The notes under the pieces were generated by a model. It ran no database searches. It worked only from the letters and a program-made list of their open reading frames with translations, and was not told the origin of the DNA. This document shows positions 49,886 through 53,337 of a DNA stretch of 64,000 bases, piece by piece. The position numbers and the translations under genes were made by a program. This stretch comes from Bosea sp. NBC_00550 (GTDB lineage: Bacteria > Pseudomonadota > Alphaproteobacteria > Rhizobiales > Beijerinckiaceae), in assembly GCF_026020075.1 (NCBI RefSeq), contig NZ_CP102772.1, positions 4,244,501 through 4,308,500 of the forward strand, read 5' to 3'. Position 1 is the first letter of the stretch. Each line of letters opens with the position of its first letter.

Positions 49886-50686
49886 TCACCAGCCGGCGAG
49901 AACGGCGCCCTTGAAGCGCTCGGCGACGAAGGCCTTGATCTCGGGCGTGTGGTAGCTTTCGAGCAGCGTCTTGACCCAGGGCTTGTCCTTGTCGGCGCTG
50001 CGGATGGCGATGAGGTTGACGTAGGGCCCCTTGGCATCCTCGCGCAGGATGGCCGAGGCCGGGTCGATCTTGGCATCGACGGCGTAGTTGGTGTTGATCG
50101 CGGCGGCGGCGACATCGGCCAGCGAACGCGGGGTCTGGGCGGCCTCGATCTCGATGATCTTGAGCTTCTTCGGGTTGGCCGTGATGTCGGCCACGGTCGG
50201 CTTGAAGCCGACGCCGTCCTTCAGCTTGATGATGCCCCTGTCCTGCAGCAGCAGCAGCGAGCGGCCGCCATTGGTCGGGTCGTTCTGGATCGCGACGGTC
50301 GAGCCGTCAGGCACCTCGGACCAGCTCTTGTACTTCGACGAATAGATGCCGAGCGGGAAGTTCACTGTCAGCCCGACGCTCTCGATCTTGAAGCCGCGGT
50401 CCTTCACCTGGTTGTCGAGATAGGGCTGGTTCTGGAAGGAATTGGCCTCCAGCTCGCCGGCGTCGAGCGCCTGGTTCGGCACGACATAGTCGGAGAACTC
50501 GATGATCTTGAGGTCGATGCCCTTCTTGGCGATGAGCGGCTTCACCTTTTCGAGGATTTCGGCATGCGGGCCCGGCGAGACGCCGATGCGCACGACCTGA
50601 TTCTGCTGGGCCAGCGCCGGGCCGGCGGCAAGGGCGAAGGCGAAGCCGGCGGCAAGGGCGGCGCGGCGGCTGAGGGAGGTCGTCAT
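49886..50686 (-). CDS. metQ: methionine ABC transporter substrate-binding protein MetQ-like
   Basis: A 266-residue NlpA-family periplasmic protein. Seen: VVRIGVSPGPHAEILEKVKPLI, ALDAGELEANSFQNQPYLD, VAIQNDPTNGGRSLLLLQDRG and the closing FVAERFKGAVLAGW. The signal peptide ends GPALAQQ with no lipobox Cys, unlike E. coli MetQ, so the protein is probably soluble in the periplasm. ATG 50686 has AAAGGAAACC upstream; 50707 is an alternative. It is the last gene of the operon, after metI. Confidence 0.9.
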   Translation of the reverse strand: MTTSLSRRAALAAGFAFALAAGPALAQQNQVVRIGVSPGPHAEILEKVKPLIAKKGIDLKIIEFSDYVVPNQALDAGELEANSFQNQPYLDNQVKDRGFKIESVGLTVNFPLGIYSSKYKSWSEVPDGSTVAIQNDPTNGGRSLLLLQDRGIIKLKDGVGFKPTVADITANPKKLKIIEIEAAQTPRSLADVAAAAINTNYAVDAKIDPASAILREDAKGPYVNLIAIRSADKDKPWVKTLLESYHTPEIKAFVAERFKGAVLAGW

Positions 50687-50727
50687 GATGGTGGTTTCCT
50701 TTGACATGAAGCGGATGGAATGTCGGA

Positions 50728-51393
50728 TCAGGCGTGGCGCAGGCGCTTGTTGAGGCGGCGCGCCAGGCGGTCGCCGATGCTCTGGACGAGCTGGACGAGG
50801 ACGATGAGCACGGCGACGACGGTCGCCATCACATCGGGCATGAAGCGCTGGTAGCCGTAGCGAATGCCGAGATCGCCGAGCCCCCCGCCGCCGACCGCGC
50901 CGACCATGGCCGAGAAGCCGATCAGGCTGACGATGGCCAGCGTCAGGCCGAGCACGATCGCCGACAGCGCCTCGGGCACCAGCACCTTTCTGATGATCTG
51001 GACGGGCGTGGCGCCCATGGCGCGGGCAGCCTCGACCAGGCCCTGATCGACCTCGCGTATCGCGCCCTCGATCAGGCGGGCGATGAACGGCGTTGCCGCG
51101 ACGGTCAGCGGCACGATCGCCGCTGCTGTGCCGATGGAGGTGCCGGCGAGCAGCCGTGTGAACGGGATGATCGCCACGACCAGGATGATGAAGGGCGTCG
51201 AGCGGGTGGCGTTGACCAGCACGCCGAGCAGGGCATTGGCGGCAGGTGCCGAGAACAGCTCGCCCCGCTTGCTGGTGGCGAGGAAGACGCCGAGCGGCAG
51301 CCCCAGCAGCGTGCCGATGCCGGCCGCTGTCGCGACCATGATCAGCGTGTCCAAAGTCGATTGCCAGATCAGGCGGATGATTTCAGGAGACAT
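50728..51393 (-). CDS. metI: methionine ABC transporter permease MetI
   Basis: A 221-residue permease with five hydrophobic segments. Typical sequence: TLIMVATAAGIGTLLGLPLG, VNATRSTPFIILVVAIIPFTRLL, the ATPase-contact loop QGLVEAARAMGATPVQIIRKVLVPEALS, and VGAVGGGGLGDLGIRYGYQRF. It overlaps metN by 11 bases and precedes metQ by 41 bases. Confidence 0.95.
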   Translation of the reverse strand: MSPEIIRLIWQSTLDTLIMVATAAGIGTLLGLPLGVFLATSKRGELFSAPAANALLGVLVNATRSTPFIILVVAIIPFTRLLAGTSIGTAAAIVPLTVAATPFIARLIEGAIREVDQGLVEAARAMGATPVQIIRKVLVPEALSAIVLGLTLAIVSLIGFSAMVGAVGGGGLGDLGIRYGYQRFMPDVMATVVAVLIVLVQLVQSIGDRLARRLNKRLRHA

Positions 51394-52492
51394 GGCCGAT
51401 CACCTCCGCCTTGAGTCCCAGGCTCTTGAGGGCGCCGAGCACGGCTTCGCTCTCCGGCGCGCGCGAGGGCACCGAGACGAGCAGGCTGCCGAAGGGCTGC
51501 CCGGCGATGGCGTCGATGCGTCCCGCCAGGATGTTGACGTCGATGCCGACGATGGCGCTCAGCCGGCTGATCACGGGCGCGGTCGCGTTCTCGCCGATGA
51601 AGGTGATGCGCAGGACGAGATTGTCGCCCGGCCGTGCCTGCGAGCGGATGCGGCCCGCGAGATGCTCGGGCACCTCGACCCCGGTCACCGCCTCGACGAA
51701 GCGGGCCGTCGTCGGATGCTGAGGGTTGGTGAAGACGGAGAAGGTCTCGCCCTCCTCGACGATCCGCCCATCCTCGATCACCGCGACCCGGTCGCAGATC
51801 TCCTTGATCACCGGGATCTCATGGGTGATCAGCAGGATGGTGATGCCGAGATCGCGGTTGACCTGCTTCAGCAGGGACAGGATGGAGCGGGTCGTCTCGG
51901 GATCGAGCGCCGAGGTCGCCTCGTCGCAGAGCAGCACCTTCGGATCGGTGGCGAGCGCCCGGGCTATGCCGACGCGCTGCTTCTGCCCGCCCGAGAGCTC
52001 GGCCGGATAACGCGCGCTTTTGTCGGCGAGCCCGACGAGCGCGAGCAGCCTCTCGACCTTGGCGGTGATCTCGGCGCGCGGCGTGCCGGCGATCTCCAGC
52101 GGCAGCGCGACATTGTCGAAGACCGTGCGCGAGGAAAGCAGGTTGAAGTGCTGGAAGATCATGCCGATCCGCCGCCGCTGTGCCCGCCAGCCGGCCTCGG
52201 TCAGGTTCGTGACGTCCTCGCCCTCGATCAGGATGCGCCCGGCGGTGGCGCGCTCGAGCCCGTTGACCAGGCGGATCAGCGTCGACTTGCCGGCGCCGGA
52301 GCGGCCGATCACGCCGAGGATGCTGCCGGCCGGCACGTCGAGATCGATGCCGGCGAGCGCGCTCACGGCCTGCTGGCCGCTGCGCCCGGCATAGGTCTTG
52401 CCGACCTGCTCGAAGCGGATGGCCGTATCGGGAACGGCGATGGGCAGGGCGCCGGCCGCGAGCGTGCCGGGTCTGACGGGGGCGTTCATCAT
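51383..52492 (-). CDS. metN: methionine ABC transporter ATP-binding protein MetN
   Basis: A 369-residue ATPase. Walker A GRSGAGKSTLIRLVNGLE, Q-loop GMIFQHFNLL, signature ELSGGQKQRVGIARAL, Walker B KVLLCDEATSALDPETT. The C-terminal NIL regulatory domain (from about residue 280: PAVISRLSAIVGIDVNILAGR) binds methionine and allows trans-inhibition in the known family. ATG 52492 or 52489 starts it, 4 bases after the stop of the 57-residue ORF. Confidence 0.95.
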   Translation of the reverse strand: MMNAPVRPGTLAAGALPIAVPDTAIRFEQVGKTYAGRSGQQAVSALAGIDLDVPAGSILGVIGRSGAGKSTLIRLVNGLERATAGRILIEGEDVTNLTEAGWRAQRRRIGMIFQHFNLLSSRTVFDNVALPLEIAGTPRAEITAKVERLLALVGLADKSARYPAELSGGQKQRVGIARALATDPKVLLCDEATSALDPETTRSILSLLKQVNRDLGITILLITHEIPVIKEICDRVAVIEDGRIVEEGETFSVFTNPQHPTTARFVEAVTGVEVPEHLAGRIRSQARPGDNLVLRITFIGENATAPVISRLSAIVGIDVNILAGRIDAIAGQPFGSLLVSVPSRAPESEAVLGALKSLGLKAEVIGHVS

Positions 52493-52496
52493 GTCC

Positions 52497-52670
52497 TCAG
52501 AAATGAGTATGGCAGGACCAGTGGGCGATACCGAGCTGCTCGATCGTCACGTCGTGGATCGAACGGCGCCGGTCGTCCACGCTCGTGGCGTCGAGCGGGT
52601 CGAAGCTGGCGGGAACGGCGCGGGCGAACCAGGCTGCCAGGGCGTTCCAGAGTGGCGACAGGAGCTGCAT
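52497..52670 (-). CDS. small ORF of 57 residues upstream of metN
   Basis: Reads MQLLSPLWNALAAWFARAVP and ends SIHDVTIEQLGIAHWSCHTHF; stop at 52497-52499. It lies 7 bases after the 82-residue ORF and 4 bases before metN, fitting a translated member of the operon, and GAGGCGAAG lies upstream of its ATG. The amphipathic N-terminal helix and a His/Cys-containing C-terminus are the only marked features. Function unknown. Confidence 0.6.
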   Translation of the reverse strand: MQLLSPLWNALAAWFARAVPASFDPLDATSVDDRRRSIHDVTIEQLGIAHWSCHTHF

Positions 52671-52677
52671 CTTCGCC

Positions 52678-52926
52678 TCACGAGGCCAGTCGAAGCGAGC
52701 TGGCGCGTCGCGGCGCGGCGAGCCGGCGGGCGGCGCTTTCCGCCGCGCCCGGGCTGGCGAAGCGGCGCCCGTCCAAAGCGTGGAAAGCCGAGGAAGCGGC
52801 GATGAAGGTGAAGTCGCGCTCGTCGGCGCGGCGGCTGACGAGACCGATCTGGGCCTCGCCGATTTCGATCACATAGGCCTGCTGGGCCGGGCGGGTCCGG
52901 CTCGAAGCGGAGTAAAACTGGGACAT
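52678..52926 (-). CDS. small ORF of 82 residues, first full ORF after the Cys leader
   Basis: Begins MSQFYSASSRTRPAQQAYVI, continues EIGEAQIGLVSRRADERDFTF, IAASSAFHALDGRRFASPGAA, and ends basic. ATG 52926 has AAAGG about 8 bases upstream, just after a hairpin (52939-52954). The middle reads as short beta strands with a conserved-looking LDGRRFASPGAAE turn. It is in line with the 57-residue ORF and metN. No family recognised. Confidence 0.65.
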   Translation of the reverse strand: MSQFYSASSRTRPAQQAYVIEIGEAQIGLVSRRADERDFTFIAASSAFHALDGRRFASPGAAESAARRLAAPRRASSLRLAS

Positions 52927-52938
52927 GGCTCTGCCTTT

Positions 52939-52954
52939 CGCCGCTCTTGCGGCG
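52939..52954 (-). promoter_or_regulatory. hairpin between Cys leader ORF and the 82-residue ORF
   Basis: CGCCGC / GCGGCG with loop AAGA, a 6-bp GC stem ending just before the AAAGG ribosome site of the next ORF. A smaller stem, GGCC-GCAA-GGCC with a GNRA-type loop, lies at 52979-52990. Neither is followed by a T run, so control by ribosome access or Rho is more likely than intrinsic termination. Confidence 0.55.
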
Positions 52955-52999
52955 TTCGTCGAAACGATCGGATGGAAGCGGCCTTGCGGCCCTGCGATC

Positions 53000-53068
53000 T
53001 CAGCGTCGACAGCAACAGAGAGAGTGGCGGAAGCGGATTTGGCTTCGGCTCGTTTTCGCAATGGCCAT
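53000..53068 (-). CDS. 22-residue polycysteine leader peptide upstream of metNIQ
   Basis: Short ORF of 22 codons, MAIAKTSRSQIRFRHSLCCC followed by RR and TGA. A strong ribosome site, GAGGAG (53075-53080), lies 6 bases before ATG 53068, and three Cys codons (TGT TGC TGT, 53017-53009) occur just before the stop. Downstream lie hairpins and then the small-ORF/metNIQ genes. By analogy with polycysteine leader ORFs known in mycobacteria, ribosome stalling at the Cys codons when cysteine is scarce could switch on a sulfur-uptake operon. The peptide itself probably has no other function. Coding is well supported by the ribosome site; the mechanism is inferred. Confidence 0.7.
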   Translation of the reverse strand: MAIAKTSRSQIRFRHSLCCCRR

Positions 53069-53186
53069 GTCAGTCTCCTCGGTCTGGAGCCCACGACCCA
53101 GTCGTGGCGCTTTAGCGTTTGGTGACGCGGCGCAAGCTGCTCGCTCAAATCTCCGCGGTGCCTGGATCGCTCCAGGAACGATCTGC

Positions 53187-53215
53187 AATCTGGCGGTGGT
53201 CGTCCTCTTTGTCAA
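53187..53215 (-). promoter_or_regulatory. candidate promoter of the Cys leader / metNIQ operon
   Basis: On the minus strand TTGACA (53215-53210) is a perfect -35 box, with CAGATT (53192-53187) 17 bases downstream. A small palindrome TTCTTT-T-AAAGAA lies directly upstream (53224-53236), where an activator might bind. The 5' leader would be about 110 bases long before the leader ORF and contains a CCACGAC / GTCGTGG hairpin. Confidence 0.5.
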
Positions 53216-53337
53216 TCGGTTCGTTCTTTTAAAGAAACTCAGGCAAGGAGAATAATCTTCTCCAATCGTATGTCCGGAGTGCGGCCTGCGGCATCGCGCG
53301 GCTTGACGGCAGGGCGGAAGCGGCGCCATTTGCCGCC

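Follow-up and report, generated by a model that had tools for sequence, protein, structure and literature searches.

The sulfur-uptake genes metNIQ of Bosea sp. NBC_00550 lie downstream of a 5′ leader in which a SAM-II-like aptamer is followed by a short open reading frame (ORF) ending in cysteine codons and then by the gene of an uncharacterized protein, P1. We consider it likely that this is a two-input leader for the control of P1 and sulfur-uptake operons, with the RNA sensing SAM and pausing ribosomes sensing cysteinyl-tRNA. The parts and their order, their conservation, the enrichment in cysteine and the wide distribution are established here and, with rather less assurance, we lean towards a widespread alphaproteobacterial leader of the AND type, where a SAM riboswitch gates translation of a cysteine-sensing ORF, in places as short as five or six codons, and P1 and sulfur import are controlled by reading first SAM and then cysteinyl-tRNA on a single RNA. 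If true, this would be a case of a riboswitch wired in series with a codon-sensing leader ORF, the two responding to two end products of sulfur assimilation, and it would hold for many genera, with the laboratory species Azospirillum brasilense among the bacteria concerned. At five or six codons, such leader ORFs would be very small for regulatory ORFs, and the P1 family would be pointed to as a target of sulfur control.

The leader and its genes in Bosea

All features described here lie on the minus strand of the window, that is, the whole 64,000-nucleotide stretch of DNA analyzed. The leader ORF (53000..53068; MAIAKTSRSQIRFRHSLCCCRR) has 22 codons and a TGA stop, and its Shine-Dalgarno (SD) sequence, GAGGAG at 53075..53080, is evident both in the sequence and in the Bosea alignment. 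Three cysteine codons, TGT TGC TGT (53009..53017), are followed by the arginine codons CGA and CGC and the stop, and in all of this, from start and SD to TGA, the first-pass annotation proved accurate. It had also described a hairpin-containing leader, and hairpins are indeed present: the GGCC-rich H1 (52980..52992), read in sequence and alignment, lies directly 3′ of the leader stop, and H2 (CGCCGC..GCGGCG, 52939..52954), which recurs in the alignment, lies directly 5′ of the SD of protein P1. What had been overlooked is the SAM-II-like aptamer upstream of the ORF. Just before the aptamer the sequence reads as promoter-like (TTGACA - 17 nt - CAGATT, 53187..53215), and the TTGACA is kept in 30/30 aligned loci of the genus; a consensus promoter scan did not call this site, the second hexamer being too weak.

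The aptamer occupies 53092..53166. Its match to the Rfam family SAM_alpha (RF00521) scores 30.3 bits (E 1e-4) against a gathering score of 36, and because of this shortfall we call it SAM-II-like. It has the architecture of SAM-II, with stem P1, pseudoknot P2 (GCUUGC with GC[UA]AAGC) and the conserved AUUUG, CUUGC and GCUAAA core, from which some relatives deviate. A covariance model, R1, was built from 26 leaders picked by the presence of protein P1 and a GCTAA core, not by cysteine content; it scores the window aptamer at 94.9 bits, the window leader being itself one of the 26 seeds. Across these 26 sequences aptamer stem P1 is paired in 100% of alignment cells and pseudoknot P2 in 98.1%, with one pair in each showing change on both sides. 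A further hairpin, P3 (GCCACGAC..GTCGTGGGC, 53089..53108), stands between aptamer and leader ORF and shows both-sided changes in three of its six pairs over the same sequences, while five of the 67 Bosea-type loci (L020, L097, L098, L101 and L110) lack its 5′ arm. Among the relatives scanned, the Rfam cut-off is passed only by L172 (39.1) and L167 (38.0); most scanned loci of the window's SAM-II subtype score 24-35 bits or give no match at all, and since they fall below the RF00521 cut-off the subtype is probably under-annotated in Rfam.

Downstream of the ORF, metNIQ had been described as the operon that the leader serves. The genes are there on the same strand, namely metN (51383..52492; Pfam ABC_tran and NIL), the metI permease gene (50728..51393; BPD_transp_1, PF00528) and a metQ-like NlpA lipoprotein gene (49886..50707; Lipoprotein_9, PF03180, with TIGR00363 over its cut-off); the best NCBIfam match of metN, TIGR02314, reaches 399.5 bits, below its cut-off of 499.7. 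They are not adjacent to the ORF, as two orphan reading frames intervene: P1 (52678..52926), an 82-residue protein encoded by the first gene after the leader ORF, and P2 (52497..52670), a 57-residue ORF ending HWSCHTHF. Neither matches any Pfam or NCBIfam family. A P2-like ORF with this conserved end is found right before metN in 24 of 30 loci. For P1, the AlphaFold2 model (mean pLDDT 82.9, pTM 0.66) comprises three strands followed by two helices, and comparison with PDB sequences gave no relative, the best hit (E 0.052) being a designed protein. Homologues of P1 occur in 33/199 genomes and 18/100 genera of the order, and in 19/240 genomes and 18/203 genera of the class.

Within the genus the leader RNA was found in 33 of 37 genomes and MetN (E 1e-60) in 32; the four genomes lacking the RNA, some of them incomplete, also lack MetN. 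In the one genome with the leader RNA and no MetN match (G016), the SAM-II core and a leader ORF, MTVPHSRRSRTRFRTLCRCRR, precede P1 and then genes read as dnaJ and dnaK. The metNIQ genes were considered as the direct target of the leader and rejected: P1, often with P2, comes first, and P1 retains the leader where MetN is not found.

The Bosea-type set comprises 68 loci (L001-L030 and L074-L111), many of which are the same genomes counted twice. All 68 carry the SAM-II core and the leader ORF, 67 by a script pattern and one (L087, ORF MTIANTFLSRSHFLLCCCRR) by inspection, as a single changed core base hid it from the pattern. The 67 script-matched loci hold 43 distinct leader ORFs, of 20 (1), 21 (5), 22 (35) or 26 codons (2). 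Every one of the 43 has at least one cysteine in its last eight codons and 41 have at least two, the numbers being one in 2 ORFs, two in 20, three in 19 and four in 2; for comparison, cysteine makes up 0.74% of the 16428 codons in the 45 long ORFs of the window. The N-terminal half of the peptide is divergent. The comparison of related genomes that the first-pass annotation had proposed thus comes out in favor of a conserved ORF, with start, SD and cysteine codons retained across Bosea while the remaining peptide drifts, and its presence in 68/68 loci, along with the cysteine-rich leader ORFs that follow this RNA in other families, argues that it is not there by chance.

The choice of cysteine codon deserves separate comment. 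TGT accounts for 76 of the 112 cysteine codons in the 43 distinct leader ORFs, against 11 of 121 in the long ORFs of the window, and the cysteine codon preceding an arginine codon is TGT in 43/43, so that an RNA constraint may add to the preference for TGT at the ORF end. Furthermore, in 42 mutually related sequences the end of the ORF shows a tendency to pair with the segment before H2 (ensemble pairing, 10.9 vs 6.3 pairs; mean z 1.34). Taken to the extreme, such features would make the conserved TGTCGACGCTGA-like end an RNA structural element with an incidental ORF, a reading that we find scarcely credible, as the length changes only in frame, SD and ATG are kept, and other genera attain a cysteine-rich end with other DNA words.

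Cysteine codons behind the same RNA in other genera

Matches to R1 number four strong places and one weak in the genome of the window itself, and extend to 42/199 genomes and 24/100 genera of the order and to 58/289 genomes and 44/224 sampled genera of the class. The relatives examined are the 63 loci (L112-L174) with the best R1 matches from own genome, order and class, at most 30 from each, of which 62 were placed. Cysteine was counted in one locus per genus, in the first ORF of fewer than 60 codons that starts behind an SD, giving 28 genera with that of the window included. Dropped beforehand were the locus that was not located (L163), three with no such ORF by rule (L144, L159 and L173, the last of which does carry MTQSPARNLLRSLCRRDICCRFF, without a clear SD), nine whose first ORF has at least 60 codons, and extra loci of genera already counted.

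The 28 genera, which stand among the best R1 matches, have 73 cysteines in 672 non-start codons (10.9%), three times the shuffled expectation (mean 22.9, s.d. 4.8, maximum 44 in 1000 runs). At least two cysteines fall within the last ten codons in 18 of the 28, where shuffles gave at most 6. By position, cysteine takes up 57 of the 222 codons in the last eight places and 16 of the 450 earlier ones. This enrichment bears on the possibility that the leader ORF is a mere translation-coupling device, whose SD is under SAM control and whose translation makes the P1 start accessible, with no sensing of cysteine by its cysteine codons. Such a reading can draw on the short first ORFs that lack any cysteine behind the same RNA, in 4 of the 28 genera (among the loci examined, L164, L165 and L174 are of this kind), and on LLRLSAFL-type peptides described below, but coupling by itself accounts neither for a cysteine content so far above the shuffles and so concentrated at the end nor for ORFs of five or six codons made up mostly of cysteine and arginine, and we regard it as unlikely.

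The named relatives illustrate the range of forms. A search with the leader DNA found matches in 26 plasmid records, 13 of which were examined; a plasmid search with the P1 protein gave no match. Azospirillum brasilense Sp7 has the leader ORF MTMMSLPFSANRTGTVTGQCCQMRNACCRR and a second A. brasilense one ending in GLCCRMRNASCRR, both with P1. In Azospirillum sp. B510, from another order, the aptamer is followed by an ORF ending SGLCCR, P1 and then annotated MetQ and MetN, and in A. thermophilum an ORF ending ARMCCRCA by P1 and an annotated MetQ; A. oryzae has an ORF ending TLCCRCRRA ahead of an ABC substrate-binding protein (SBP) gene, with no P1 found. P1 is likewise present in Tistrella (..GHCPCGPRAFG), Terrarubrum (..YCRFRRRCRGLVGALCV), Microvirga lotononidis (..DWCRLS, one cysteine) and Microvirga sp. 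VF16 (..LRCLACRLCDTRDGCRL, four cysteines). The smallest forms are MTCCCP of Niveispirillum, with a good SD and no P1 found, and MCCRR of Roseomonas marmotae, MRCCRR of Pseudoroseomonas cervicalis and MRCRR of R. haemaphysalidis, all three with P1; these Acetobacteraceae mini-ORFs show no evident SD and, being from near relatives, are not independent.

These small ORFs also bear on whether the C-terminal peptide acts as a nascent-chain arrest peptide that senses SAM, metal or thiol stress, with the cysteines as ligand residues. Cysteine adjoins arginine near the stop, as might suit such a peptide, and other Bosea SAM-II leader ORFs share a peptide motif, LLRLSAFLxxTR[CS]. Against this, the residues before the cysteines are not conserved, and peptides as short as MCCRR, MRCCRR and MTCCCP would not fill the ribosomal exit tunnel. 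We therefore judge an arrest peptide very improbable, and the reduction of some ORFs to MTCCCP or MCCRR leads us to favor the sensing of codons.

The RNA also occurs alone. At L149, L150, L161, L167, L168 and L172 no leader ORF follows it and the first SD is that of the gene itself, which encodes an SBP (L149 and L150), a Cys_Met_Meta_PP protein (L161 and L167) or a CysG-like protein (L168 and L172). R1 relatives precede CysG-like, Cys_Met_Meta_PP and AhpC-TSA genes, as well as SBP_bac_11 genes (read as sulfate-type) and alpha/beta-hydrolase genes (read as MetX-like). Since this RNA is also found ahead of sulfur genes with no leader ORF in between, the cysteine ORF looks like an addition to SAM-II control, a module placed mainly in front of P1 and uptake operons. 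The converse arrangement was seen at two loci, L045 and L051, where a Cys-rich leader ORF, MHACMTRRCFSAATGACCCC (one residue different in L051), stands before P1, with no SAM-II match at the locus and no R1 match in either genome. To judge from these sequences the leader ORF is separable from the riboswitch and can exist without it. At L045 a gene read as SsuA-like follows P1.

How the two signals might be read

The first-pass annotation had proposed a cysteine-sensing leader ORF. That interpretation remains the best by comparison, with cysteine-rich leader ORFs at the same place in other families, but it was incomplete, as the ORF is the second half of a tandem with the SAM-II-like aptamer and its nearest target is protein P1. 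In the two-input leader that we favor, plentiful SAM would be bound by the aptamer, hiding the SD of the leader ORF, as expected from SAM-II biology. When SAM is low the ORF would be translated, and if cysteinyl-tRNA were also short the ribosome would pause on the terminal cysteine codons. Held on the last codons, it would keep the end of the ORF from pairing with the leader downstream and so raise translation of P1 and the operon, the step of which we are least sure. The net logic would be that a simultaneous shortage of SAM and cysteine turns up the sulfur-uptake genes, here metNIQ.

Simple RNA folding predicts no clear switch. In folds without SAM the leader ORF often has its SD paired (mean unpaired probability 0.41, with 19 of 26 sequences below 0.5), in a calculation without a shuffled control. 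Predicted access to the P1 SD in Bosea is unchanged on stalling (0.35 to 0.36). In the comparison across genera it increases, from 0.25 to 0.37, with 13 of 38 loci going up and 2 down by more than 0.15, and a ribosome at the stop codon raises it about equally, to 0.36, as translation coupling without cysteine sensing would also have it. The native ORF lowers predicted P1 SD access relative to shuffled ORFs in 9 of 15 genera (p 0.064), and relative to no ORF (p 0.035). A simple switch by sequestration of the P1 SD was considered and set aside, being unsupported in the Bosea folds, with a weak trend across genera. For the pairing of the ORF end with the downstream segment, the duplex energy (mean zd -0.38) and the pair counts given above indicate a tendency only.

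A trp-type attenuator was also rejected. A scan of 52600-53330 gave no intrinsic terminator on the minus strand, the two sites found there being on the plus strand, and control through translation or Rho is therefore more likely.

Known systems and further SAM-II leaders

Polycysteine leader ORFs of mycobacteria, as described in the literature, are leaderless, cysteine-responsive attenuators (Canestrari et al. 2020, via PMC9031893 and PMC13236596), in which cysteine availability acts through elongation speed on the downstream genes (PMC9031893, PMC13236596). Going by those descriptions, the window ORF resembles them as a short ORF with contiguous cysteine codons upstream of sulfur genes; in contrast to them it has an SD, follows a SAM-II-like aptamer, belongs to Alphaproteobacteria and stands before P1 and uptake genes. 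According to PMC1273637 and PMC9373788, the SAM-II (SAM_alpha) riboswitch has been known since 2005, from metA of Agrobacterium and Sinorhizobium, and in Sinorhizobium the metA SD forms part of the riboswitch, which sequesters it when SAM binds (PMC9373788). Set beside metA as so described, the window aptamer has the same core and pseudoknot, but the first element behind it is a leader ORF with cysteine codons, there is an extra P3 hairpin, and the score is below the Rfam cut-off. The mgtA leader of Salmonella joins a Mg2+-sensing leader RNA to the proline-codon ORF mgtL. Like that leader, the one in the window combines RNA sensing and codon sensing, with other signals, another RNA and other genes. 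A literature search, judged mostly by titles and abstracts, found no paper describing SAM-II followed by a cysteine leader ORF; polycysteine attenuator ORFs and SAM-II are thus each known, and within those titles and abstracts their connection in series was not found described.

Several other SAM-II leaders were noticed in the course of the analysis. A SAM_alpha match of 34.3 bits (L031/L116, at C1:5194193 in the genome of the window) lies before an NMT1-type SBP gene, without a leader ORF. A second SAM-II subtype, GCTAAAAGCACCACG-like, has leader ORFs in which LLRLSAFLxxTR[CS], or a peptide much like it, recurs, possibly as an arrest peptide. Such leaders occur in Bosea genomes (L115, L184-L188, L191, L192, L196 and L201; C1:4975621 in the window's own genome) and precede P1-like ORFs, an ORF read as GAF-type and an SBP_bac_5 gene. 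The SAM-II leader ORFs of L113, L190, L195, L197 and L198 end in RCS, with the last cysteine alone shared, and stand before flavin reductase genes. Those of L114, L199 and L200 end in HRRL without a shared cysteine, and at L114 the leader is followed by an ORF read as OsmC-like and an NMT1-type SBP gene.
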